Of a stretch of DNA of 64,000 nucleotides, positions 34,934 to 54,053 are shown in pieces (the first letter of the stretch is position 1; every line of letters begins with the position of its first letter). The notes beneath the pieces were generated by a model, which saw nothing but the letters and a program-made list of their open reading frames with translations, was not told the origin of the DNA and searched no databases. The translations under genes and the position numbers were made by a program. This DNA is from Microbacterium trichothecenolyticum. Lineage in GTDB: Bacteria; Actinomycetota; Actinomycetes; Actinomycetales; Microbacteriaceae. Where the stretch lies: the NCBI RefSeq assembly GCF_030818955.1, contig NZ_JAUTBF010000001.1:2666001-2730000 (forward strand), given 5' to 3'.

Positions 34934-35701
34934 GTGCGTGCTGTGGATGCGTTGGAGGCCCTCGAGCTTGCGGGTTCGACTCAGCGCGGTCTGGTGACGA
35001 CCGCTCAGGCGCGCGAAGCGGGCCTGAGCGGGGTCGACCTGACACGCCTTGCCGACGCAGGCAAGCTTCTTCGTGTCCGCCACGGCGTGTACGTACTGCC
35101 GTCGGCCGGTTCGGATCGTCTACAGGATTTGCGGGCTGCATGGTTGGCAGCCTCAGCGAACGGAGAGGTCGTCGTCTCGAGGGCGTCGGCGTCGGCCGTG
35201 CACGGCCTCGGCGATCTCGTCCCGGCGGCGCACGAGTTCACCGCGGCCGTGCGGCGGCAGAGCACGCTTCCCGATGTTCGCTTCCACCGTGCCGCTCTCG
35301 AAGACGTCGATGTGACCGTGGTCGATGGCCTGCCCGTCACGACCGTGGTCCGCACGGTCGGCGATCTCGTCGCGTCATCGCTGGATTCGGATCAGCTCGC
35401 GCGGGTGCTGTCCGATGCGGTGGAGCGTCCCGGTGTCGACGTGGAGGCTCTCGTGACCGTGCTCACACCCTATGCTGCTCGGTACGGATTCGATTCGGGA
35501 CGCGCAATGCTGGCGGAGGTGGCGCCCGGATACCTCGCTGCGACGCTTCGCAGCGTTGTTGACGAAGCCGTGATGCTTTCGAGCCAGTTTCGACAGCAGG
35601 CGCTGGACCTTCTCGAAGAGCCGGGCGGCGCGAACGCGCTCTTGGCGCTCTTCCACGACCGGCTCGCCCGCGGCGATTCACCCGTGCGGAAGGACACGTA
35701 G
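34934..35701 (+). CDS. AbiEi-family antitoxin (type IV toxin-antitoxin)
   Basis: This 255-residue protein has an N-terminal winged-helix domain (STQRGLVTTAQAREAGLSGV, LTRLADAGKLLRVRHGVYVL), the AbiEi_4 arrangement, followed by the PF11459-like part (VVSRASASAVHGLGDLVPAA, VTVVDGLPVTTVVRTVGDLV). It is the cognate antitoxin and repressor for the next gene, with which it shares one base (TAGTG). GTG start. AbiE aborts phage infection and stabilises DNA segments. Confidence 0.88.
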   Translation: MRAVDALEALELAGSTQRGLVTTAQAREAGLSGVDLTRLADAGKLLRVRHGVYVLPSAGSDRLQDLRAAWLAASANGEVVVSRASASAVHGLGDLVPAAHEFTAAVRRQSTLPDVRFHRAALEDVDVTVVDGLPVTTVVRTVGDLVASSLDSDQLARVLSDAVERPGVDVEALVTVLTPYAARYGFDSGRAMLAEVAPGYLAATLRSVVDEAVMLSSQFRQQALDLLEEPGGANALLALFHDRLARGDSPVRKDT

Positions 35702-36636
35702 TGGCGCTGACAGCAGTCGAGCTCGCCCGCTTTGCTCGTTCGGTCGGCGCGAAGCTGAACACGGAGGCTCGCCACCGCGGCGTCGCAGCGGATGTCATCC
35801 GTAAGCAGTACGTTTTCACGCTGTTCTTGAGCAGGCTCTTCGGCGCGGACCCTCAGCCGCCATGGGTGCTCCTCGGGGGGAACGCGCTCCTCATCCGAAC
35901 AGGTGGAGGGCGGTTCACGCAGGACATCGACCTGGCTCGCCAGAGTGCATGGACAACAGCCGAAGACGTGCGATGCGAGCTGCAGTCGCTCGCTGATGCT
36001 CCTGCTGCTCGAGACCCGTTCACGTTCATCATCGCCTCGGTCGAAGCGCACTCCGAAGTCGACCCGTTCGGCTATGGAGCGAAGACGGCAAGCGCGAAGG
36101 TGCAGGCCCGACTCGGTTCACAGGTGTTCGAGGTGTTCACTATCGATCTCACGGAGCGACGCCACCTCGATGTTCCCGTCGACCACGTGCCGTTGAGGGT
36201 GGTAATCCCGCACGCGACTCTCTCTGAGCTTCCATCGGTGCCGACGACCCCGCTGGAGAATCACCTGGCCGACAAGGTATGCGCGATGTATGAGTTGCAC
36301 GGCCGTGACCGAACCTCTCCGTCGACTCGATACCGGGACCTCGCCGACATCGTTCGCATCTTGGATGCCGGTCCCCTCAACGCAGAGCGTTTGATCACGG
36401 TGCTGGGCCGTGAATCGGGTCGACGCAGGATGACCTTGCCAGAGCGACTGGTGGCGCCTTCAGATCAGTGGCGCGATGCGTTCCCGCGCCAGGCAAGGAC
36501 ATTCGCCGAATACCCGAGCCGGCTCTATCCGCTCGACGCGTCCTTGGACGAGGCCCGTTCGTGTCTGGACCCGATTCTGTCGGGTGAACGAACATCGGGT
36601 ACGTGGGATTCCGAGACGCGGTCCTGGTTCGAATAA
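35701..36636 (+). CDS. AbiEii-family nucleotidyltransferase toxin
   Basis: This 311-residue toxin has the nucleotidyltransferase core GGNALLIR at residues 59-66 and RFTQDIDL at 71-78, with the metal-binding Asp75/Asp77 pair. Later it has ENHLADKVCAMYE and RYRDLADIVRIL, typical AbiEii helices including the Lys and Asp expected for catalysis. AbiEii transfers nucleotides to an RNA target (tRNA in mycobacterial homologues) and stops growth when unopposed. GTG start overlaps the antitoxin stop by one base. All key residues are present, so the pair looks functional. Confidence 0.9.
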   Translation: MALTAVELARFARSVGAKLNTEARHRGVAADVIRKQYVFTLFLSRLFGADPQPPWVLLGGNALLIRTGGGRFTQDIDLARQSAWTTAEDVRCELQSLADAPAARDPFTFIIASVEAHSEVDPFGYGAKTASAKVQARLGSQVFEVFTIDLTERRHLDVPVDHVPLRVVIPHATLSELPSVPTTPLENHLADKVCAMYELHGRDRTSPSTRYRDLADIVRILDAGPLNAERLITVLGRESGRRRMTLPERLVAPSDQWRDAFPRQARTFAEYPSRLYPLDASLDEARSCLDPILSGERTSGTWDSETRSWFE

Positions 36637-43521: not shown

Positions 43522-43583
43522 GGTGTTCGGATCGAGTTCAGACGACGGATAGAGTGACCCCGATCAACACATGGGGGCGCACT

Positions 43584-44804
43584 ATGGGGCGAGGATTCGC
43601 GGTCGTCGATCTCGAGACGACAGGTCTCTTTCCGCAGAAGCACGATCGCATCGTCGAGGTGGCGATCGTGCATGTGTCGCCGACCGGCGTCGTCGAGGGG
43701 GTCTGGGAAACACTCGTCAATCCGATGCGCGATACGGGTGCGCAGCGCATCCACGGCATCAGTGCCGCTGCTGTCGCGCGGGCTCCGGAGTTCGGTGCAC
43801 TGGCACCGTCCATCGCCTCGCTTCTGCGCGGGCGGGTGCCTGTCGCGCACAACGCGAGTTTCGACGCGCGGTTCTTGGCCCACTCCATGGAGCAAGCCGG
43901 TCTGGCGTGTCCCGAGTACGAGTACTGGATGTGCACGATGCAGCTCGCGGGCACATTCCTGCCGGGCAATCGGAGTCTCGCCGACTGCAGTGCCGCGATC
44001 GGGTACGCGATGCAGAACGCCCATCGCGCTTCGGCGGATGCTCTCGCCGCGGCGGCGCTCCTTCGCGCCTACATCGGCGCGGGTCACGATCCCGCGTGGT
44101 GGGATGGGTGGCTCGCTACCGCGGGGGAGTGGCCGGATGAGCCGTGCGACACGACAGCTTGGCTGGCGCGCACGGACTCCGACACGGCACCGCGGTCAGT
44201 TCTCGAGCGTTTGCACGTGGACGTCGCGGCCGACGCCGCCGTCGACGACGGCGCCCTGAATCTCGACTACCTCGCTCTGCTCGATCGCGTCCTCCTCGAT
44301 CGGTACATGTCCGCGACCGAGACCGACGACCTCATTCGATTCGCCGCGGAGCTCGGTCTTTCAAGCACCGCGGTGCGCCGTCTCCACCGTGCCTACTTCG
44401 ACGGGTTGGTCTCGGCGGCCTGGGCGGACGATCAGCTCACCGCCGACGAGTGGGCTGATATCCAGAAGATCGGTGGCCTGCTCGAGATCGACGCGGAAAC
44501 GATCGCCGGAGCCGCTTCGAAACCGGATGCCGCGGCCCCGACCCTCACCACCGGCTTCCGCCTTTCACCGGGAGACACCGTCGTCATCACCGGCGACACG
44601 CGCCGAGATCGAGCGGCGTGGTTCCAGATCCTCACCCAGCGCGGTCTCATCCCGAAAGACAGCATGGTGAAGAAGGCCAAGGTGCTTGTGGCCGCCGACC
44701 CCGACTCGATGTCGGGGAAGGCGCGGCAGGCGCGAGCGTGGGGGATTCCGATCGTCACGGAGGAGGGGCTGGAGAGGTTGATGGGGCTGGGGGTCGCTGA
44801 GTAG
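43584..44804 (+). CDS. DEDDh exonuclease (DnaQ/epsilon-like) with C-terminal BRCT domain
   Basis: This 406-residue protein begins with a 3'-5' exonuclease domain: FAVVDLETTG (Exo I, Asp-Glu), VAHNASFDARFL (Exo II) and HRASADALAAAALLRAYI (Exo III, DEDDh His and Asp). A middle helical TerB-like segment (LDRVLLDRYMSATETDDLIR ... WADDQLTADEWADIQ) follows. The BRCT domain near the end (DTVVITGDTRRDRAAWFQIL ... VAADPDSMSGKARQARAWGI) can bind phosphoproteins or DNA ends. Start ATG 43584 is preferred; a GTG at 43554 adds ten residues. Its position behind the helicase suggests a joint nucleolytic role, but similar proteins also occur alone as repair factors. Confidence 0.85.
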   Translation: MGRGFAVVDLETTGLFPQKHDRIVEVAIVHVSPTGVVEGVWETLVNPMRDTGAQRIHGISAAAVARAPEFGALAPSIASLLRGRVPVAHNASFDARFLAHSMEQAGLACPEYEYWMCTMQLAGTFLPGNRSLADCSAAIGYAMQNAHRASADALAAAALLRAYIGAGHDPAWWDGWLATAGEWPDEPCDTTAWLARTDSDTAPRSVLERLHVDVAADAAVDDGALNLDYLALLDRVLLDRYMSATETDDLIRFAAELGLSSTAVRRLHRAYFDGLVSAAWADDQLTADEWADIQKIGGLLEIDAETIAGAASKPDAAAPTLTTGFRLSPGDTVVITGDTRRDRAAWFQILTQRGLIPKDSMVKKAKVLVAADPDSMSGKARQARAWGIPIVTEEGLERLMGLGVAE

Positions 44805-44890: not shown

Positions 44891-45860
44891 TCATTGGTGC
44901 AGCTGTTCTGCCTGATGTGAGGTGTCAGGCGACACGAGCACGAACGTAGTCTGCTCGCGGAAGGCCACCCCAAGGCCGGCGTCGCTGAGAAAATCTCGAA
45001 GGTCAGCGGTAGGGCGTTCGGGAAGGAGCACCGAACAGCGTAGATCGTCGACGTGCACGTGTCGGCGGTAGTCGTAGAGCTGGCCGACCGCCATACGGAG
45101 GTCCGAGCGGCTGACAATTGCCTTCGCCTCATAGAGGGTGTGATCGGATTCGTCGTAGATATCGGTGAGCAGCCGGGTGTGCTCGGCGGGTAGGTTTATC
45201 GCCCACCGAGTGAAGTTGTGCCCCACCCGATGTGCGATGAACTCGTCGACAAGCCGCGACTCCCGCCGTACCGCCAGGCCACCCACGCGATCCGCCGTTT
45301 CGAAGAACTCGGTTGAGTTAATTTCGACGGGGACCGAAACGGCATTCGGTTGGCGCGTCATTTCTGAGTAACCGACGAGCTCAACGACTCTATCTGGGAT
45401 CACGCTCACTGGCAGCAGTCGGAAGACGAGCACTGTGCGCAGCGCTCGCGGTTCGATCGAGCGCTGGCATGCGCTCGAATGGCACGTCGGGGTCGAGGAT
45501 GAACTCTCCGATGTACCGTTGAAGCTTTGTGCTCGACCCCGCCACGACGCCCGCTGCGCTAAACGCGTGGAGGGAGCGTCCTTTCGCGGCGTGGGTCAGG
45601 ATTGGTGAGTTGCTGCCGCTGAGCTTCTGGTCTCCATCGCGGCCCGCGCCGGTGTAATGGAACACCGCGCCGTCCGGGGAGAAGCCGTCGTAGACGTACC
45701 CGAACTGTTTGCCCTCGGCGGGGTCTGTGAACACAAAGACGGAGTTCGAAGTGTTGCTCGGAACGATGCCACCAGACTGAGCGCTGCCGCCATACTCGAC
45801 CACGAGGTCGGCACGTGTGACGATGTCGCCTGCGCGGAGGCGGACGACGGGCGATGGCAC
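44891..45860 (-). pseudogene. ScoMcrA SRA-like domain protein (type IV restriction-related), frameshifted
   Basis: The upstream frame from GTG 45860 reads LRAGDIVTRADLVVEYGGSA, SGGIVPSNTSNSVFVFTDPA, then FGYVYDGFSPDGAVFHYTGA and GDQKLSGSNSPILTHAAKGR. This is the SRA-like domain of actinobacterial ScoMcrA-type modification-dependent restriction proteins. The continuation (RTVLVFRLLPVSVIP ... HTLYEAKAIVSRSDLRMAVG, LYDYRRHVH) is in the +1 frame to 44891. The Glu-Ala-Lys near LYEAKA resembles a PD-(D/E)XK core. Deleting one base near 45430-45455 restores about 323 residues. A TATGTT -10 lies 6 bases before the start (leaderless), divergent from the mazG-like gene. Confidence 0.65.
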
Positions 45861-45968
45861 GTGCTCAACATATCGATCAGATCGAATTGACGGCGACATC
45901 ACTCGCGGGCGGGGGGACGCTACGACGAGCACGAACGTCGCCTCGCGAAGCCTGCGTCCGCACCCTGA

Positions 45969-45974
45969 TACGGT
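45969..45974 (+). promoter_or_regulatory. -10 element (TACGGT) of a leaderless promoter for the MazG-helicase pair
   Basis: TACGGT ends 7 bases before the GTG at 45982. The opposite strand has TATGTT 6 bases before the divergent start at 45860, so the 121-bp gap is a divergent leaderless promoter. Confidence 0.5.
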
Positions 45975-45981
45975 CGCAATC

Positions 45982-46302
45982 GTGACGAGTCAGCATGTTC
46001 AGAGGGCTCTCGAGGACTTCGTTCGCGAGCGTGACTGGGCCCAGTTTCATACCCCGGCGAACCTTGCCAAGAGCATTGCGATTGAGGCGGGCGAGCTACT
46101 GGAGTGCTTCCAGTGGAGCGACGATGCGGACGAGGCGCAGGTGCAAGCCGAGCTCGCTGACGTGGTGACCTATTGCATGCTGCTTGCGGCACGGCTTGGG
46201 GTCGACCTGGACGAGATCGTGCTCGAGAAACTCGCCATGACTCGGGAGAAGTACCCGGTCGATCGGGCCAGGGGACGGAGTGCAAAGTATGACGCCCTTT
46301 GA
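45982..46302 (+). CDS. MazG-like nucleotide pyrophosphohydrolase
   Basis: This 106-residue all-alpha NTP pyrophosphohydrolase has the metal-binding pattern Glu35-X2-Glu38 (IAIEAGELLECFQW) and Glu57-X2-Asp60 (ELADVVTYCMLLAARLG), then EKLAMTREKYPVDRARGRSA. Related enzymes hydrolyse dCTP or other (d)NTPs to monophosphates. It overlaps the helicase gene by 14 bp, so the two are translationally coupled and probably act together. Nucleotide depletion or removal of modified phage nucleotides would fit defence; that is inference. Confidence 0.85.
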   Translation: MTSQHVQRALEDFVRERDWAQFHTPANLAKSIAIEAGELLECFQWSDDADEAQVQAELADVVTYCMLLAARLGVDLDEIVLEKLAMTREKYPVDRARGRSAKYDAL

Positions 46303-48040
46303 GATTGATCGCCTGAACTTCACGCCGAGCGCGATTTCGGATTGGACGGCGGGTGACGAGCGCCGAACAAATTGGCCTGTCGTTTATGTGCTTGATGGTG
46401 CCGACTCGGCTGGCGCCGGGGCCGTGTACGTCGGTGAGACGGTCAACGCCGTTGCGCGCATGCGTCAGCATCTCTCCAACCCCGCCAAGCAAGTATTTCG
46501 ACACGTACGCGTAGTAATCGACGACACCTTCAACAAGTCGGCGTGCCTCGATCTGGAATCTCACCTGATCCGCTGGCTCGCCGGCGACGGACAGTTCACG
46601 GTGATGAACGGTAACGAGGGGATTATCGACGCTCGGTACTTCGAACGCGACCGCTACCGGCATAGCTTCCGCGACATCTTCGAGAAGCTGCGTTCTGAAG
46701 GAGTCTTCCAGCGCAGCATCCCTGAAATCGAGAACAGCGACCTCTTTAAACTGTCGCCGTTCAAAGTGCTCACGCCAGAGCAAGCGATCGCCGTCGAAGA
46801 CATCGTGGAAGGGCTCCTGGCTGATATCAAGGGCGGAGCGTCATCCGCGAGTGTGATCGAGGGACAGCCTGGCACCGGCAAGACCATTGTCGCGATCTTC
46901 CTGATGAAGCTTCTCGCCGACATCCGTGACCACGCTGATGCGGAAGAAGTCGAACCGGATTCGATGTTCGCCGACTTCTTTGTCCCCGGTAATCGCGAGT
47001 TGCTCGCGGGGCTTCGGGTCGGTTTCGTGGTACCGCAGCAGTCCTTGCGGGAATCCATTAGGCGTGTATTCAAGAAGACACCGAAGGTCACAGAAGCTCA
47101 GATTGTGACGCCCTTCGACGTGGGGGCATCAGACCAGCCATGGGATTTGCTCATTGTCGACGAGACTCATCGGCTGAACCAGCGCGCGAACCAGTCGTCG
47201 GGCGTTAACAACAAGCGATTCATCACGATCAACGAGAAGCTCTTCGGCGTTGACGACCCATCAAAGACGCAGCTGGACTGGATCCGCGCTCAGAGCCGGC
47301 ACCAGATCTATCTGGTCGACGTTGAACAGACTGTGAGGCCGGCTGACCTGCCTTCGAGCGTCCTACGCTCACTCGTGGACCAGGCAAGGTCGACGCATCG
47401 CCGGTACCCGCTGTCTTCCCAGATGCGCGTGCGTGCTGGCGCCGACTATGTGCAATTCATTCGGGAGTTGCTGCGGGGACAGGTCAACGCGACGGAGGGC
47501 CCCGACTTCGGTGACTACGACCTGAGGTTCTTCGACAACCTCGCGACGATGCGACGAGAGATCTCAAACCGCAACGACGAGCATGGCCTCGCCCGGCTGA
47601 TCGCCGGTTACGCGTGGGACTGGAAGAGCAACCGCGATAAGGAAGCGTTCGATATCGAGTTGGACGGCGTGCGCCTTCGCTGGAACAGTCAAGCCAAGGA
47701 CTGGATCAACAGTCCAGCATCCGTCCACGAGGTTGGGTCAATTCACACCGTCCAGGGCTACGACCTTAACTACGCGGGCGTCATCATTGGCAACGACCTA
47801 CGCTACGACCCCGGCTCCCGACAGCTCTACGTCGACCGCGCCTCGTATCGGGACGCCAAGGGCAAAGAGAACAATAAGCAACGCGGGATCGTCTACTCCG
47901 ACGACGACCTCTTGGAATTCATCCGCAACATCTACGGGGTCCTCCTGACGAGGGGCATTCGTGGCACGTACGTGTACGTGTGTGACGCGGCGCTACGCGA
48001 GTACATTTCGCATCACATTGAACGTCGTGTCACCCGCTAG
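46289..48040 (+). CDS. GIY-YIG nuclease / DUF2075 (Schlafen-type) helicase fusion
   Basis: This 583-residue protein has an N-terminal GIY-YIG endonuclease (VVYVL at 31-35, YVGET at 47-51, Arg58, catalytic Glu90 in CLDLESHLIRWL, Asn107), followed by a DUF2075 P-loop motor: Walker A GQPGTGKT 192-199, Walker B LLIVDETHRL with Asp291, YLVDVEQTVRP, a sensor in YPLSSQMRVRAG, and late motif SIHTVQGYDLNYAGVIIGND. It probably cuts DNA as it translocates. ATG 46289 (GGAG 8 bases before) is preferred over GTG 46280. Base composition is lower in GC than flanking core genes. Confidence 0.87.
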   Translation: MTPFEIDRLNFTPSAISDWTAGDERRTNWPVVYVLDGADSAGAGAVYVGETVNAVARMRQHLSNPAKQVFRHVRVVIDDTFNKSACLDLESHLIRWLAGDGQFTVMNGNEGIIDARYFERDRYRHSFRDIFEKLRSEGVFQRSIPEIENSDLFKLSPFKVLTPEQAIAVEDIVEGLLADIKGGASSASVIEGQPGTGKTIVAIFLMKLLADIRDHADAEEVEPDSMFADFFVPGNRELLAGLRVGFVVPQQSLRESIRRVFKKTPKVTEAQIVTPFDVGASDQPWDLLIVDETHRLNQRANQSSGVNNKRFITINEKLFGVDDPSKTQLDWIRAQSRHQIYLVDVEQTVRPADLPSSVLRSLVDQARSTHRRYPLSSQMRVRAGADYVQFIRELLRGQVNATEGPDFGDYDLRFFDNLATMRREISNRNDEHGLARLIAGYAWDWKSNRDKEAFDIELDGVRLRWNSQAKDWINSPASVHEVGSIHTVQGYDLNYAGVIIGNDLRYDPGSRQLYVDRASYRDAKGKENNKQRGIVYSDDDLLEFIRNIYGVLLTRGIRGTYVYVCDAALREYISHHIERRVTR

Positions 48041-49319: not shown

Positions 49320-50670
49320 GGGACTGTCTGATTTCCGGTGTTTCTGGGTCGGCCTGACCGAGAGGAACAGGCCGTGAGGGACACGACCGAGATGATCGAT
49401 CCTGTGACCGGGGAGATCATCGATGAGCAGCAGCTCGCGGAGCAGCTGCTGAGGCAAGCGAAGGAGCAGGGTGTCGACTTGTTGGGCCCGGACGGGTTGC
49501 TGAACGGGTTGACGAAGCGAGTGCTGGAGACCGCGCTGGATGCGGAGATGACCGAGCACCTCGGCCGCGACAAGCACCAGCCCGCCGAGGGTGGCAACAT
49601 CCGAAACGGGACGAGGTCGAAGAGGGTGCTCACCGAGGTCGGCCCGGTGGAGATCGATGTGCCCCGGGACCGAGACGGATCCTTTGACCCGAAGATCGTC
49701 CGCAAGCGGCAACGCCGGTTGACCGGTGTCGACGAGATCGTGCTCTCGCTCACCGCTCGCGGGCTCACGACCGGAGAGGTCGCTGCGCACTTCGATGACG
49801 TCTACGGGGCGTCAGTGTCGAAGGACACGATCTCGAGGATCACTGACAAGGTGATCGAGGAGATGACGGATTGGCAGAACCGTCCGCTGGATCGCGTCTA
49901 CCCGGTGGTGTTCATCGACGCTCTGGTGGTGAAGGTCCGGGACGGCCAGGTGCGGAACAAGCCGTTCTACATCGCCGTCGGCGTGACAGTGAACGGTGAA
50001 CGCGACATCCTCGGGATCTGGGCCGGCGATGGCGGCGAGGGCGCGAAGTTCTGGCTCGGCGTGATGACCGAGATCAAGAATCGTGGCGCCGAGGATGTCT
50101 GCATCGTCGTCTGCGACGGCCTCAAGGGGCTGCCCGAGTCGATCAACACCGCGTGGCCGCTGGCGACCGTCCAGACCTGCATCATCCACCTGATCCGCAA
50201 CACGTTCCGGTTCGCATCTCGCCACTACTGGGAAGAGATGGGCAAGGACCTCCGCCCCGTCTACACCGCCCCAACGGAGGCGGCCGCAGCGGAGCGGTTC
50301 CGCGAGTTCGACGCGAAGTGGGGTCAGCAGTATCCCGCGATCACGAAGCTCTGGCAGAACGCGTGGGCCGAGTTCGTGCCGTTCCTGGACTGGGACGTGG
50401 AGATCCGCCGCGTGATCTGCAGCACGAACGCGATCGAGTCGCTCAACGCCCCGCTACCGCCGTGCGGTCCGGGCACGCGGGCACTTCCCGAACGACGCCG
50501 CGGCGCTGAAGTGCCTCTACCTCGTGACCCGCTCGCTTGACCCGACAGGTCGGGGCAGGGCACGCTGGGCCACGAGATGGAAGCCGGCACTGAACGCGTT
50601 CGCGATCGCCTTCGAAGGCCGTATCAACTAATGACCGCCGGCCCAGAAACACCGTTCATCGGAAAGACCC
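49320..50670 (+). mobile_element. IS256-family insertion sequence
   Basis: This 1351-bp element has imperfect terminal inverted repeats of about 33 bp (left GGGACTGTCTGATTTCCGGT; right end, reverse strand, GGGTCTTTCCGATGAACGGT; both continue GTTTCTGGG). The perfect 8-bp target duplication GGGAAGTC occurs at 49312-49319 and 50671-50678, as expected for IS256. It inserted into the GNAT gene. Fresh target repeats and intact ends indicate a recent event. Confidence 0.95.
49374..50631 (+). pseudogene. IS256-family transposase, frameshifted near the C-terminus
   Basis: This is a mutator-type DDE transposase of about 418 residues once corrected. It includes LTKRVLETALDAEMTEHLGR, RLTGVDEIVLSLTARGLTTG, VVFIDALVVKVRDGQVRNKP (first Asp), CDGLKGLPESINTAWP (second Asp) and STNAIESLN with the catalytic Glu. 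At the C4 run 50449-50452 one extra base shifts the frame. Removing it gives RYRRAVRARGHFPNDAAALK and an end at TAA 50629-50631. GTG 49374 is the likely start. As read, the enzyme loses its last 60 residues and may be inactive. Confidence 0.88.
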
Positions 50671-51313: not shown

Positions 51314-51970
51314 ATGCGTAGTGTTGCTGACCATGTGTGCGAGCATCATCCGCAGGGCGATTGGGGAAGGCGACTGATGCGCGATGCAGACGTGCGACTG
51401 GCACTTCACAGATGGCTGCGCGAGCAGCACCACAACGAGAGCCACCAGACCCGCATCGTCGACGAGCTGGCGATTGCTGGCCAAGTGCGAGTCGACACCG
51501 CCGTGTTGAATGGCTCCTTCGCCGGATTCGAGATTAAGAGCGCAAGCGACACCCTCCGTCGGCTTCCCCGACAGGTCGAGGTGTATTCGGCTGTCCTTGA
51601 CTACGCGACGCTTGTGGTGGCACGTAACCATGCGGCCAAAGCCAGGGAGCTCCTCCCACGCTGGTGGGGCGTGATCGAGGCAGTTTCCGTGGCCGGCGGA
51701 GACCCTGTCGTCCTACGGACAGCCCGCGAGCCACGGCCGAACCCTCGCCTGGAGCCGCGGCTGCTGTGCACCCTTCTGTGGCGGAGTGAAGCACTAGACG
51801 AACTGGAACTGCGGGGCATCGCGGCAGGTGTGCGCAGCAAGCCGAACCGCGTGCTTTGGGACCGGCTGTGCGACTCACTGGATTCCGCGGAGGTCCGCCA
51901 GATCGTGCGCGAGCGCCTGAAGGCTAGATCAGGGTGGAGAGCTGAAACGCCACCACTTCAATGTGCCTGA
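51314..51970 (+). CDS. sce7726 family protein
   Basis: This 218-residue protein has the sce7726 pattern MRDADVRLALHRWLREQHHN, then RIVDELAIAGQVRVDTAVLN, GSFAGFEIKSASDTLRRLPR and QVEVYSAVLDYATLVVARNH. The Asp ... Glu-X-Lys (FEIKS) spacing looks like a PD-(D/E)XK nuclease core. Two starts are plausible: ATG 51314 (AAAGGA upstream) or ATG 51377 (GGGGAAGG upstream), the latter matching the usual N-terminus better. The 3' end overlaps the convergent beta-family gene by 47 bp. sce7726 and sce7725/beta proteins are a recurrent pair in accessory DNA. Confidence 0.82.
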   Translation: MRSVADHVCEHHPQGDWGRRLMRDADVRLALHRWLREQHHNESHQTRIVDELAIAGQVRVDTAVLNGSFAGFEIKSASDTLRRLPRQVEVYSAVLDYATLVVARNHAAKARELLPRWWGVIEAVSVAGGDPVVLRTAREPRPNPRLEPRLLCTLLWRSEALDELELRGIAAGVRSKPNRVLWDRLCDSLDSAEVRQIVRERLKARSGWRAETPPLQCA

Positions 51971-53000
51971 CCGTGCCCCACTCACGCCATTTCCCGGGGT
52001 TACCCGGAGTGGCAGAGCCGGCCACGACGGCTTCGATCCAGGCATCGGCTTGACTGCGCACGGGCGTTGCGTACTCCGCATGACGAGTGAGTTCATCGAG
52101 CGCGGGGATGAGCGCCGCCCCACCTTTGCCCGACCCACCCTGCCCCTTGAACAGTTCTCCCTTCGCGAGGAGGAAGTCATTAGTCACGGTGTAGCGGAGA
52201 GCCGCACTGATGCTTATGAAGCGAGGGTCTACGCCGAGTTCAATGGTGTCCGGCTTCAGGACGAGGTTGTCGAAAAAGTCTGGTGTCGGCTGGCTCATCG
52301 ACGCGAGTTTCGCGTGGACGGCGCTGTAGATGCGCCACTCATCACGTGGGTACTCGGTTGTCCCGCGGGGCACACCATTCACATCCGGAAAGCCCGCGCC
52401 GCCGACTGTTATCGATCGGAATGGGCCGAGGGCGCGTAAGGAGGTCAATTCCGCGATCACTGCAACCTCAATCACGGCCCCTTCTGCGCTTTCGAAGTCG
52501 ACGAACACATCGACCACGTCGGGGGCTACACCCAGGTCTCCGAGCAGCGCCGTGAGTCGGGCAGGGTCAATTGTGGTCCAGTCGAGCTGACGGAGTCGGA
52601 TACCGACGCCGGTTCCATGCGCAACGTGCAGGCTTGCCGCGGCCGCCTTCGCAGCGGCCGAGGACGACACCTCTACGAGCGGTGCGAGCTGAGTACCCGC
52701 GACGCGCGTCTGCGCCGCTAGCCACGCCAGCGGGTGCTGGCCGTCGATGATCGGTTCCGAGTCGAGCATCGAGACGTCCACGTATCCGGACCCGCCGCCC
52801 CACACCGCGGCAAGTTTCTCCGGGAGAGGTGCCAAGTGTGCCGGAATGGTCTTGCTGTACCGCTCGTTCTCGTAGTCCCACGTACGTGGGGCAATTTGGA
52901 ACACTGGCACCACAGCTGCCCTCGTTGCTCCGTTGACCCTCGCCAGCGCAGCGAGTTCCCCTGCGCGCGCCAGCGTGAATGGTCGGTATATCTTTCCCAC
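51924..53000 (-). CDS. Beta family protein (T4 beta / sce7725-like)
   Basis: This 358-residue protein of the beta family reads YRPFTLARAGELAALARVNG, AAVVPVFQIAPRTWDYENER, LAPLVEVSSSAAAKAAAASL, and near the end IPALDELTRHAEYATPVRSQ then REWGTVRHIEVVAFQLSTLI. The family was named from a phage T4-like gene; a nucleic-acid role is suspected but unproven. GTG start with GGGGGG upstream. It faces the sce7726 gene tail-to-tail with overlapping ends, whereas homologues usually lie in tandem. The two may form a two-gene system. Confidence 0.82.
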   Translation of the reverse strand: MGKIYRPFTLARAGELAALARVNGATRAAVVPVFQIAPRTWDYENERYSKTIPAHLAPLPEKLAAVWGGGSGYVDVSMLDSEPIIDGQHPLAWLAAQTRVAGTQLAPLVEVSSSAAAKAAAASLHVAHGTGVGIRLRQLDWTTIDPARLTALLGDLGVAPDVVDVFVDFESAEGAVIEVAVIAELTSLRALGPFRSITVGGAGFPDVNGVPRGTTEYPRDEWRIYSAVHAKLASMSQPTPDFFDNLVLKPDTIELGVDPRFISISAALRYTVTNDFLLAKGELFKGQGGSGKGGAALIPALDELTRHAEYATPVRSQADAWIEAVVAGSATPGNPGKWREWGTVRHIEVVAFQLSTLI

Positions 53001-54001
53001 TGCAGCCCCCCGGCCTCAAGCATCGTTGAAGGGGACACTACCGAGTATCTCCGACCCGAGAACGGCGGAAGCGAAGACGGCGTGTTGCGCGAACGCGACG
53101 TGATGGCCTCGTGCTCGGCACCGGGGTCCGCAGCGAGCTGGAGTCAAGCCGCTGCCATTCTTGGGCCCTAGTTGTACCCGGTCAGGAGGTTGGTGCGGTT
53201 CGGCTGGTGGGTGGTGCTCCGATGGCTGAGTGGATGCGTTGAGTGTTGTACCGCTCGATGAAGGGTGCAAGTGCTGCGGCTCGGGCGGTGTTGTTCTCGA
53301 AGGGTTGCCGGTAGGCCCACTCGGTCTGCAGGGTCCGGTTGAAGCGTTCGACTTTGCGGTTGTGCCAGGGGCAGTGTGGTCGGATGAATTTCTGCCGGAT
53401 GCCTCGTTCGACGCAGAGCTGTCGGAGTGAGAACCGGTATGCCCAGGCGTTGTCGGTTATTAATCGCTCGATACGGGCGATCCCGTGATCAGCGAAGTAG
53501 TCGATCGCTCGCTCCAGGAATCCCGCGCAGGTCGGCCCTTTCTCGTCCGGGAGAATCTCGGAGTAGGCGAGCCGGGAGTGGTCGTCGACGAGCGAGTGGA
53601 CATAGTCGAACCCGACCGGCGCATCCCGGTGCCGGTCGGCGATATCGCGGCCGAGGGAGCGCCGGCCGCCGCCGTCGGGGATGCGGCCGAGCTTCTTCAC
53701 GTCCATGTGGACCAGCTCGCCCGGGCGGTCGCGTTCATATCGGATCGCGGTCGCCTTCGATGCTCGAATCACCTCGCCGGTCATCAGATCGAGCCGGGAC
53801 AGATGCGGCTCACCACGACGGGCCAGGATCCTCGACGCGGTCCTGGGCGACACCCCGACCATTGCTGCGAGCTGGTCACGGCCCCAGCGCTGCTCCCGCC
53901 GTAACCGGACCAGCTCGATCTCGACCAGCTCCGGGGTTCGTGACGGCGACGACACCGGCCTAGTTGTACCCGGTCAGCACGTTGGTGACATTCGGATAGG
54001 G

Positions 54002-54053
54002 AGAAGGCCTCCACGATTGGTGGTGTCTAACGTCACCGAAGTGGAGGCCTTCT
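54002..54053 (+). promoter_or_regulatory. Hairpin sequestering the Shine-Dalgarno of transposase B
   Basis: AGAAGGCCTCCAC (54002-54014) pairs perfectly with GTGGAGGCCTTCT (54041-54053). The right arm contains the GGAGG that precedes the TTG start at 54055. Transcripts entering from outside would fold this stem and hide the ribosome site, a common way for IS elements to limit transposase. Confidence 0.65.

Follow-up and report, generated by a model that had tools for sequence, protein, structure and literature searches.

The window analysed here is a stretch of 64,000 nucleotides from Microbacterium trichothecenolyticum (contig NZ_JAUTBF010000001.1, positions 2,666,001 to 2,730,000), and its subject is a pair of adjacent genes that lie on the forward strand: mazG, encoding a small MazG-like protein, and a gene for a 583-residue protein (for brevity ‘the helicase’) in which a GIY-YIG nuclease is fused to a helicase domain. 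An initial annotation, made from the sequence alone, had named both genes, together with a divergent gene resembling the SRA domain of ScoMcrA, and had suggested that the three might act together in defence against phage. Both identifications within the pair hold, as do the 14-bp overlap of mazG with the helicase gene and the 121-bp gap that separates mazG from its divergent neighbor. The same overlap is found in the nearer Microbacterium relatives, while others show a gap (as judged from alignment positions), and it is likely, by inference from this arrangement, that translation of the two genes is coupled. The guanine-plus-cytosine (GC) content of the pair is 59.4%, as compared to 70-72% in the outer parts of the window. 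The 3.74-Mb single-contig genome holds one match each to the families PF09848 (helicase) and PF12643 (MazG) at E 0.001; PF09848 itself is widespread, with matches in 11 of 14 control genomes (above its cut-off in 6).

The MazG-like protein matches PF12643 at 2.7e-19, and its residues 3-104 align with the DCTPP1/RS21-C6 structures 2a3q and 6sqw in the PDB (E 3.1e-21). The metal site of MazG enzymes is formed by an ExxE...ExxD motif, and the corresponding acidic residues (E35, E38, E57 and D60) are unchanged in all 67 rows of an alignment in which some rows share one genome. The protein is predicted to be an active, DCTPP1-like deoxynucleoside triphosphate (dNTP) pyrophosphohydrolase. DCTPP1 itself acts on 5-modified dCTP.

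The helicase domain of the larger protein matches PF09848 (SLFN-g3_helicase, formerly DUF2075) at 6e-66 over positions 4-354 of 354, and all 43 aligned proteins share the motif residues of superfamily 1 (SF1) helicases. The GIY-YIG stretch scored 19.6 bits against a Pfam cut-off of 22.6 in a scan of the protein and 23.3 bits, above the cut-off, in a genome search; it also matches the PADLOC model PDC-S14 (6.7e-11). The catalytic motif of such nucleases runs GIY...YIG...R...H...E, and residues Y33, Y47, G49, R57, H61 and E90 are invariant in the same number of aligned proteins (43/43). The protein is predicted to combine an SF1 helicase with an active nuclease. When the helicase was used as the sole query, a sequence search of the PDB gave no match at E 1; a profile search gave general P-loop matches, with SLFN11 at 0.013, and a structure search with a model of the protein indicated an SLFN11-like helicase fold.

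Features of the locus and of its surroundings (positions within the window)
Feature	Coordinates	Strand	Description
mazG-like gene	45982-46302	+	GTG start, 106 aa; DCTPP1/RS21-C6-like NTP pyrophosphohydrolase, predicted; E35xxE38...E57xxD60
Helicase gene	46289-48040	+	583 aa; predicted GIY-YIG nuclease (~residues 26-111) fused to SF1 SLFN-g3/DUF2075 helicase (~160-583)
Overlap of mazG 3' end with helicase ATG	46289-46302	+	14 bp
SRA half	45390-45860	-	5' part of broken, putative SRA-PD-(D/E)XK (Type IV-like) gene, from GTG at 45860
PD-(D/E)XK-like half	44891-45433	-	3' part of broken SRA gene, different frame
AbiEi/AbiEii toxin-antitoxin pair	34934-36636		Beside ProA
Anti-phage ProA	37045-43521		NCBIfam NF058533, 1715 bits vs 1500 cut-off
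PDC-S48 exonuclease	43554-44804		Directly after ProA
sce7726-family gene and beta-protein gene	51314-53000		NF033832, PADLOC ‘cll’, and PD-Lambda-2_C 7.4e-20; convergent, overlapping

Distribution of the pair and its nuclease heads

The proteins and loci closest to those of the window come from Microbacterium. Within a sample of 149 Microbacterium genomes the helicase was found in 35, and mazG adjoins it at every one of these loci, the window and the other 34 examined alike. A search for MazG returned 39 genomes: the same 35, and 4 of the 114 that are free of the helicase. These four comprise a lone mazG beside a gene that reads as a cytosine methylase (G110), a lone mazG on a contig that ends about 540 bp after it (G063), a mazG in an unrelated setting (G117) and a genome with weak matches (G070). 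The co-occurrence of the two genes across the 149 genomes exceeds chance (Fisher p ~6e-30, uncorrected for phylogeny). In a collection of named genomes, some of which are also part of the genus sample, mazG lies beside the helicase at 10 of 12 loci. The conserved unit is the two-gene pair of mazG and helicase.

Beyond the genus, a search of 396 Actinomycetota genomes yielded 30 helicase matches, and 20 of the 28 that fell outside Microbacterium were examined, along with 16 records chosen by hand from 32 plasmid and phage records that match the helicase. Profile searches placed mazG beside the helicase at 14 of the 20 Actinomycetota loci and in 8 of the 16 plasmid or phage records (22 of 36). 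The pair thus recurs both in the genus and farther afield, a point that the initial annotation had proposed to check. The wider helicase loci span Actinomycetota, Bacillota, Bacteroidota, Pseudomonadota, Halobacteria and phage records; the eight pairs from plasmid and phage records belong to Lactiplantibacillus, Ligilactobacillus, the archaeon Halalkalicoccus, Priestia, Halomonas (where mazG lies about 550 bp from the helicase), a Microcystis phage, Marivirga and a fecal contig filed as phage. The position of mazG relative to the helicase may be upstream, downstream or, at one locus (L132), divergent, and the occurrence of both gene orders and of a divergent case argues that the pairing is not mere operon inertia.

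Many of the distant helicases carry a different N-terminal head, in which E69, D80, E98-L-K100, Q101 and Q131 are invariant (16 of 16 aligned; a related alignment of such helicases has 20 rows, fragments included). By our own reading of the motif, this head follows a PD-(D/E)XK pattern, and a model of one such protein (L142) has its helices and strands in the order expected for such a fold, in a region where the model is weak (pLDDT blocks of ~53-83). Structure searches with both whole models filled up with helicase matches and did not confirm the GIY-YIG fold, so that both heads are assigned from profiles, from motifs and from secondary structure. Among the 22 wider loci with mazG, 9 have the GIY-YIG head and 13 the PD-(D/E)XK head (L134, L135, L136, L138, L139, L141, L142, L144, L150, L152, L156, L157 and L158). 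Because both heads are found with mazG, the helicase and MazG are the constant parts, and the nuclease is an interchangeable one. A set of 19 relatives includes one full-length match to the PD-(D/E)XK-headed type (G210), with no mazG adjacent to it. The record of the Microcystis phage Mwe-JY31 (L157, 3877-6071) joins mazG to a PD-(D/E)XK-headed helicase. Three Bacillota plasmids (L147, L148 and L152) carry, a few genes ahead of the helicase, a gene with the annotation (deoxy)nucleoside triphosphate pyrophosphohydrolase or MutT, and these annotations add to the nucleotide theme.

The two proteins of the pair have not diverged in strict parallel. Their pairwise identities, compared over 35 loci, correlate with a Pearson coefficient of 0.63 (moderate, and uncorrected for phylogeny), and the idea of tight co-evolution between MazG and helicase was rejected on that ground. 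In genome G140 (locus L079) the MazG is 68% identical to that of the window and the helicase 87%, whereas relatives with a comparable helicase keep a MazG of about 85% identity; it is possible, from these values, that mazG alone has been replaced there.

The SRA gene and the defence neighborhood

The description of the divergent gene as SRA-like holds for its similarity and its orientation; it does not hold for a single open gene, since the coding sequence is split between two minus-strand open reading frames (ORFs) in different frames, the first extending over 45390-45932. The SRA half matches the PADLOC model mREase_IV (4.6e-4), a profile of the family matches the ScoMcrA structure 5zmn (3.6e-4), and a Pfam profile scan of the product gave no match. 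In the second half, D233...E244-A-K246...Q260 is shared without change by all six aligned relatives and, read as a motif, looks like a PD-(D/E)XK nuclease. In four of five aligned relatives (G009, G086, G140 and G141) the gene is a single open frame of 320-338 aa, and in the fifth (G091) an in-frame stop interrupts it; in G009 and G086 stops fall within the matched stretch, and the frames are open from the start codon, for 322 aa and 320 residues, respectively. A programmed frameshift is disfavored by these four intact relatives and by the lack, as judged by eye, of a slippery run at the junction; the break may be a sequencing error in this genome. The gene probably represents an independent, Type IV-like enzyme that is broken here, and in this genome it is no working part of the mazG-helicase locus. 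Other plasmids encode proteins, annotated as HNH endonuclease or AAA family ATPase, that match the SRA half alone, and on two Streptomyces plasmids (L173 and L174) relatives of the SRA-PD-(D/E)XK-like protein directly precede a DUF4007 gene.

The divergent arrangement of the SRA gene and mazG does not by itself imply coupling, since different genomes have different genes on the far side of mazG. Of the 149 Microbacterium genomes, 15 have an SRA match, which is no more than 2 kb from the pair in five (G000, G009, G091, G021 and G076); in G140 the distance is about 5 kb, in G071 it is 10 kb, and in G141 the SRA gene is on a different contig. Adjacency in five genomes exceeds chance, and the clustering of genes in defence islands also explains it.

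The pair also recurs near defence-type genes, the second point that the initial annotation had proposed to check, in the window as in other genomes. The exonuclease, ProA and Abi genes lie on the side of the SRA gene, and the sce7726-family and beta-protein genes beyond the helicase (see the table); these last two genes are 94-95% identical in G071 (L077), where the exonuclease is reduced to a fragment split over two frames and the 19.8 kb examined contain no ProA match. For 20 of the remaining 34 Microbacterium loci, the first gene upstream that encodes 120 aa or more was examined (at distances of 50 bp to 4.7 kb), and 7 of the 20 match PADLOC models at 1e-5: HNH, DrmB, Vsr, a cytosine methyltransferase, MzaC, Type IIG and PD-Lambda-1, the last in G140. 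When 120 of 186 neighbor genes were compared with a control set drawn from the same genomes (120 of 198 genes), the former matched 73 PADLOC families at 1e-20 and the latter three, confined to mad3 (four genes) and HerA (one), in a comparison that counts families rather than genes and is inflated by redundant methylase models. Cytosine methylases recur around the pair. A putative transposase-like ORF, recognized by reading, lies within the island at 49338-50540, and two 54-nt direct repeats, 76% alike (53167-53220 and 53959-54012), stand at either end of an ORF at 53182-53955; a search of the window for tRNA genes found none.

Known systems and a proposed function

The closest counterparts of the nuclease-helicase protein are found among defence systems. 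AbiO and Nhi act as single genes, and they share with it the plan of an N-terminal nuclease joined to an SF1-type helicase; its helicase core matches the PADLOC models for AbiO (2.2e-8) and Nhi (2.5e-7), with the best stretch limited to residues 160-209, and the PD-(D/E)XK-headed relatives match to 5.8e-12. The window's protein differs in its GIY-YIG head and in its second gene, mazG, and by sequence profile the Nhi-type nuclease is absent, the matches beginning at profile position 178-182; a review lists NERD for ‘Nhi-like’ (PMC10952713). Two PADLOC candidates are also similar. Among the PD-(D/E)XK-headed relatives, matches to PDC-S41 reach 4e-17 and fall in the N-terminal part in L135, being best at the C-terminal end in others; the window's helicase also matches this model (6e-9). 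PDC-S14 matches the GIY-YIG part, as noted above; both are candidates without a stated mechanism, and neither is related to MazG.

Further comparisons each account for one part of the locus. The modeled SLFN11-like helicase fold suggests a likeness to the human group III Schlafens (SLFN11 and SLFN14), whose N-terminal nuclease core is not known to be related to GIY-YIG. MazG resembles DCTPP1/RS21-C6 in sequence and in its acidic residues, and differs in being paired with a nuclease-helicase. The SRA gene, broken here, can be set beside the SRA endonucleases ScoMcrA and TagI; it is similar to ScoMcrA in its SRA domain, and has a PD-(D/E)XK-like half in place of an HNH domain, which is the nuclease domain of ScoMcrA. 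The corresponding domain of TagI is likewise given as HNH (PMC10853773). A GIY-YIG domain is listed for both PD-Lambda-1 and PD-T4-3 (PMC10952713), and the parts of the two sources consulted mention no DUF2075 helicase or MazG partner for either (PMC10952713, PMC9519451). The DefensePredictor study includes MazG among its predicted, unvalidated defence domains (Science 2026, PMC13092281); so far as its text was accessible, it names no partner for MazG, and DUF2075, Schlafen and GIY-YIG do not appear in the main text. No NCBIfam model scored above its cut-off for mazG or the helicase, no single named defence system in PADLOC or NCBIfam covers both genes (the helicase having partial PADLOC matches only), and a search of open-licence papers, by title and the opening lines of abstracts, turned up no pair of a DUF2075/Schlafen helicase with MazG.

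On the best reading, for which the odds are about even, mazG and the GIY-YIG-SLFNg3 helicase form a horizontally moving, two-gene module directed against phages (or plasmids), in which the helicase-nuclease would cut DNA and MazG would hydrolyze dNTPs. The support for such a module consists of the co-inheritance of the two genes, their intact predicted active sites, the swapped nuclease, the patchy and defence-rich setting, and the low GC content. The helicase would load onto, or travel along, invading or replicating DNA, and its N-terminal nuclease would cut the invader; MazG, for its part, would hydrolyze a dNTP (most likely dCTP or modified dCTP) and so lower or clean the nucleotide pool used in phage replication, with the result that template and building blocks would be hit together. 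MazG could contribute by depleting dNTPs, by clearing modified dNTPs, or by acting as a guard. A more specific version, in which MazG would destroy the modified cytosine nucleotides that phages produce to conceal their DNA (for example 5-hydroxymethyl-dCTP), so that their genomes would stay open to cleavage by the helicase-nuclease (whether its SLFN11-like helicase bears the GIY-YIG or the PD-(D/E)XK head) and by the cytosine-methylation and SRA enzymes often found nearby, is a restriction at the level of nucleotides that seems highly doubtful.

Several observations weigh against a dedicated defence module of two parts. MazG matches no PADLOC model; two of the named-collection loci (L012 and L013) have no mazG beside the helicase; and profile searches detected none at 14 of the 36 wider loci (L130, L133, L137, L140, L143, L145, L146, L148, L151, L153, L154, L155, L159 and L160), of which L133 is a helicase fragment only. 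Ordinary genes are also among the neighbors of the pair, and 13 of the 20 nearest upstream genes have no PADLOC match at 1e-5 (two are SRA genes and 11 are without a match, of which three belong to an integrase-like cluster, one member, L084, having been read). Finally, an exchangeable enzyme accounts better than a tight complex for the divergence of MazG in G140 and for the moderate correlation of identities.

Some of the same facts bear on the alternative that MazG is a guard, in the manner of an antitoxin, that restrains or licenses a nuclease-helicase harmful to its host (for example by keeping a nuclease-activating nucleotide low). The fact that in the genus the helicase is never alone (35 of 35), while mazG sometimes is (G110, and G063 near its contig end), fits such a role; the wider helicase loci that lack an adjacent mazG speak against it, and the variable order and orientation of the genes, together with the seemingly exchanged MazG of G140, are unlike the close fit of antitoxin to toxin and are better matched by a free enzyme. 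The guard role is judged unlikely. It seems improbable, too, that the pair serves DNA repair, recombination or the upkeep of a mobile element, with the nuclease-helicase processing stalled forks and MazG cleaning damaged dNTPs, since it is patchy within the genus (35 of 149 genomes) and restriction and defence genes adjoin it repeatedly, where control genes matched only the mad3 and HerA models already mentioned.

The three-part system of the initial annotation, in which the SRA protein would read modified phage DNA and direct the nuclease-helicase and MazG, fares worst. The SRA gene is indeed enriched where the pair is present (8 of 35 genomes, compared to 7 of 114 without it; Fisher p 0.008), it lies within 2 kb of the pair in five of those eight, and cytosine methylases are recurrent nearby. 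However, it is frame-broken in the window's genome and interrupted in G091, is not adjacent to the pair in 30 of 35 genomes, carries a predicted nuclease half of its own, and is found without the pair in 7 of the 15 genomes that have it, while G071, with a helicase 93% identical to the window's, has no SRA match between the exonuclease remnant and mazG. A joint action of all three proteins is thus very improbable indeed, and it finds no support in the window's genome.

If the two-gene defence module is real, then a single SLFN11-like helicase core, served by a dNTP hydrolase of its own and able to bear one nuclease or another, would constitute a system that spans bacteria and archaea, and the cutting of the template would be joined to control of the nucleotide pool within a single module. 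The predicted MazG defence domain would thereby gain a concrete partner, and the antiviral human Schlafens would gain a prokaryotic comparison.

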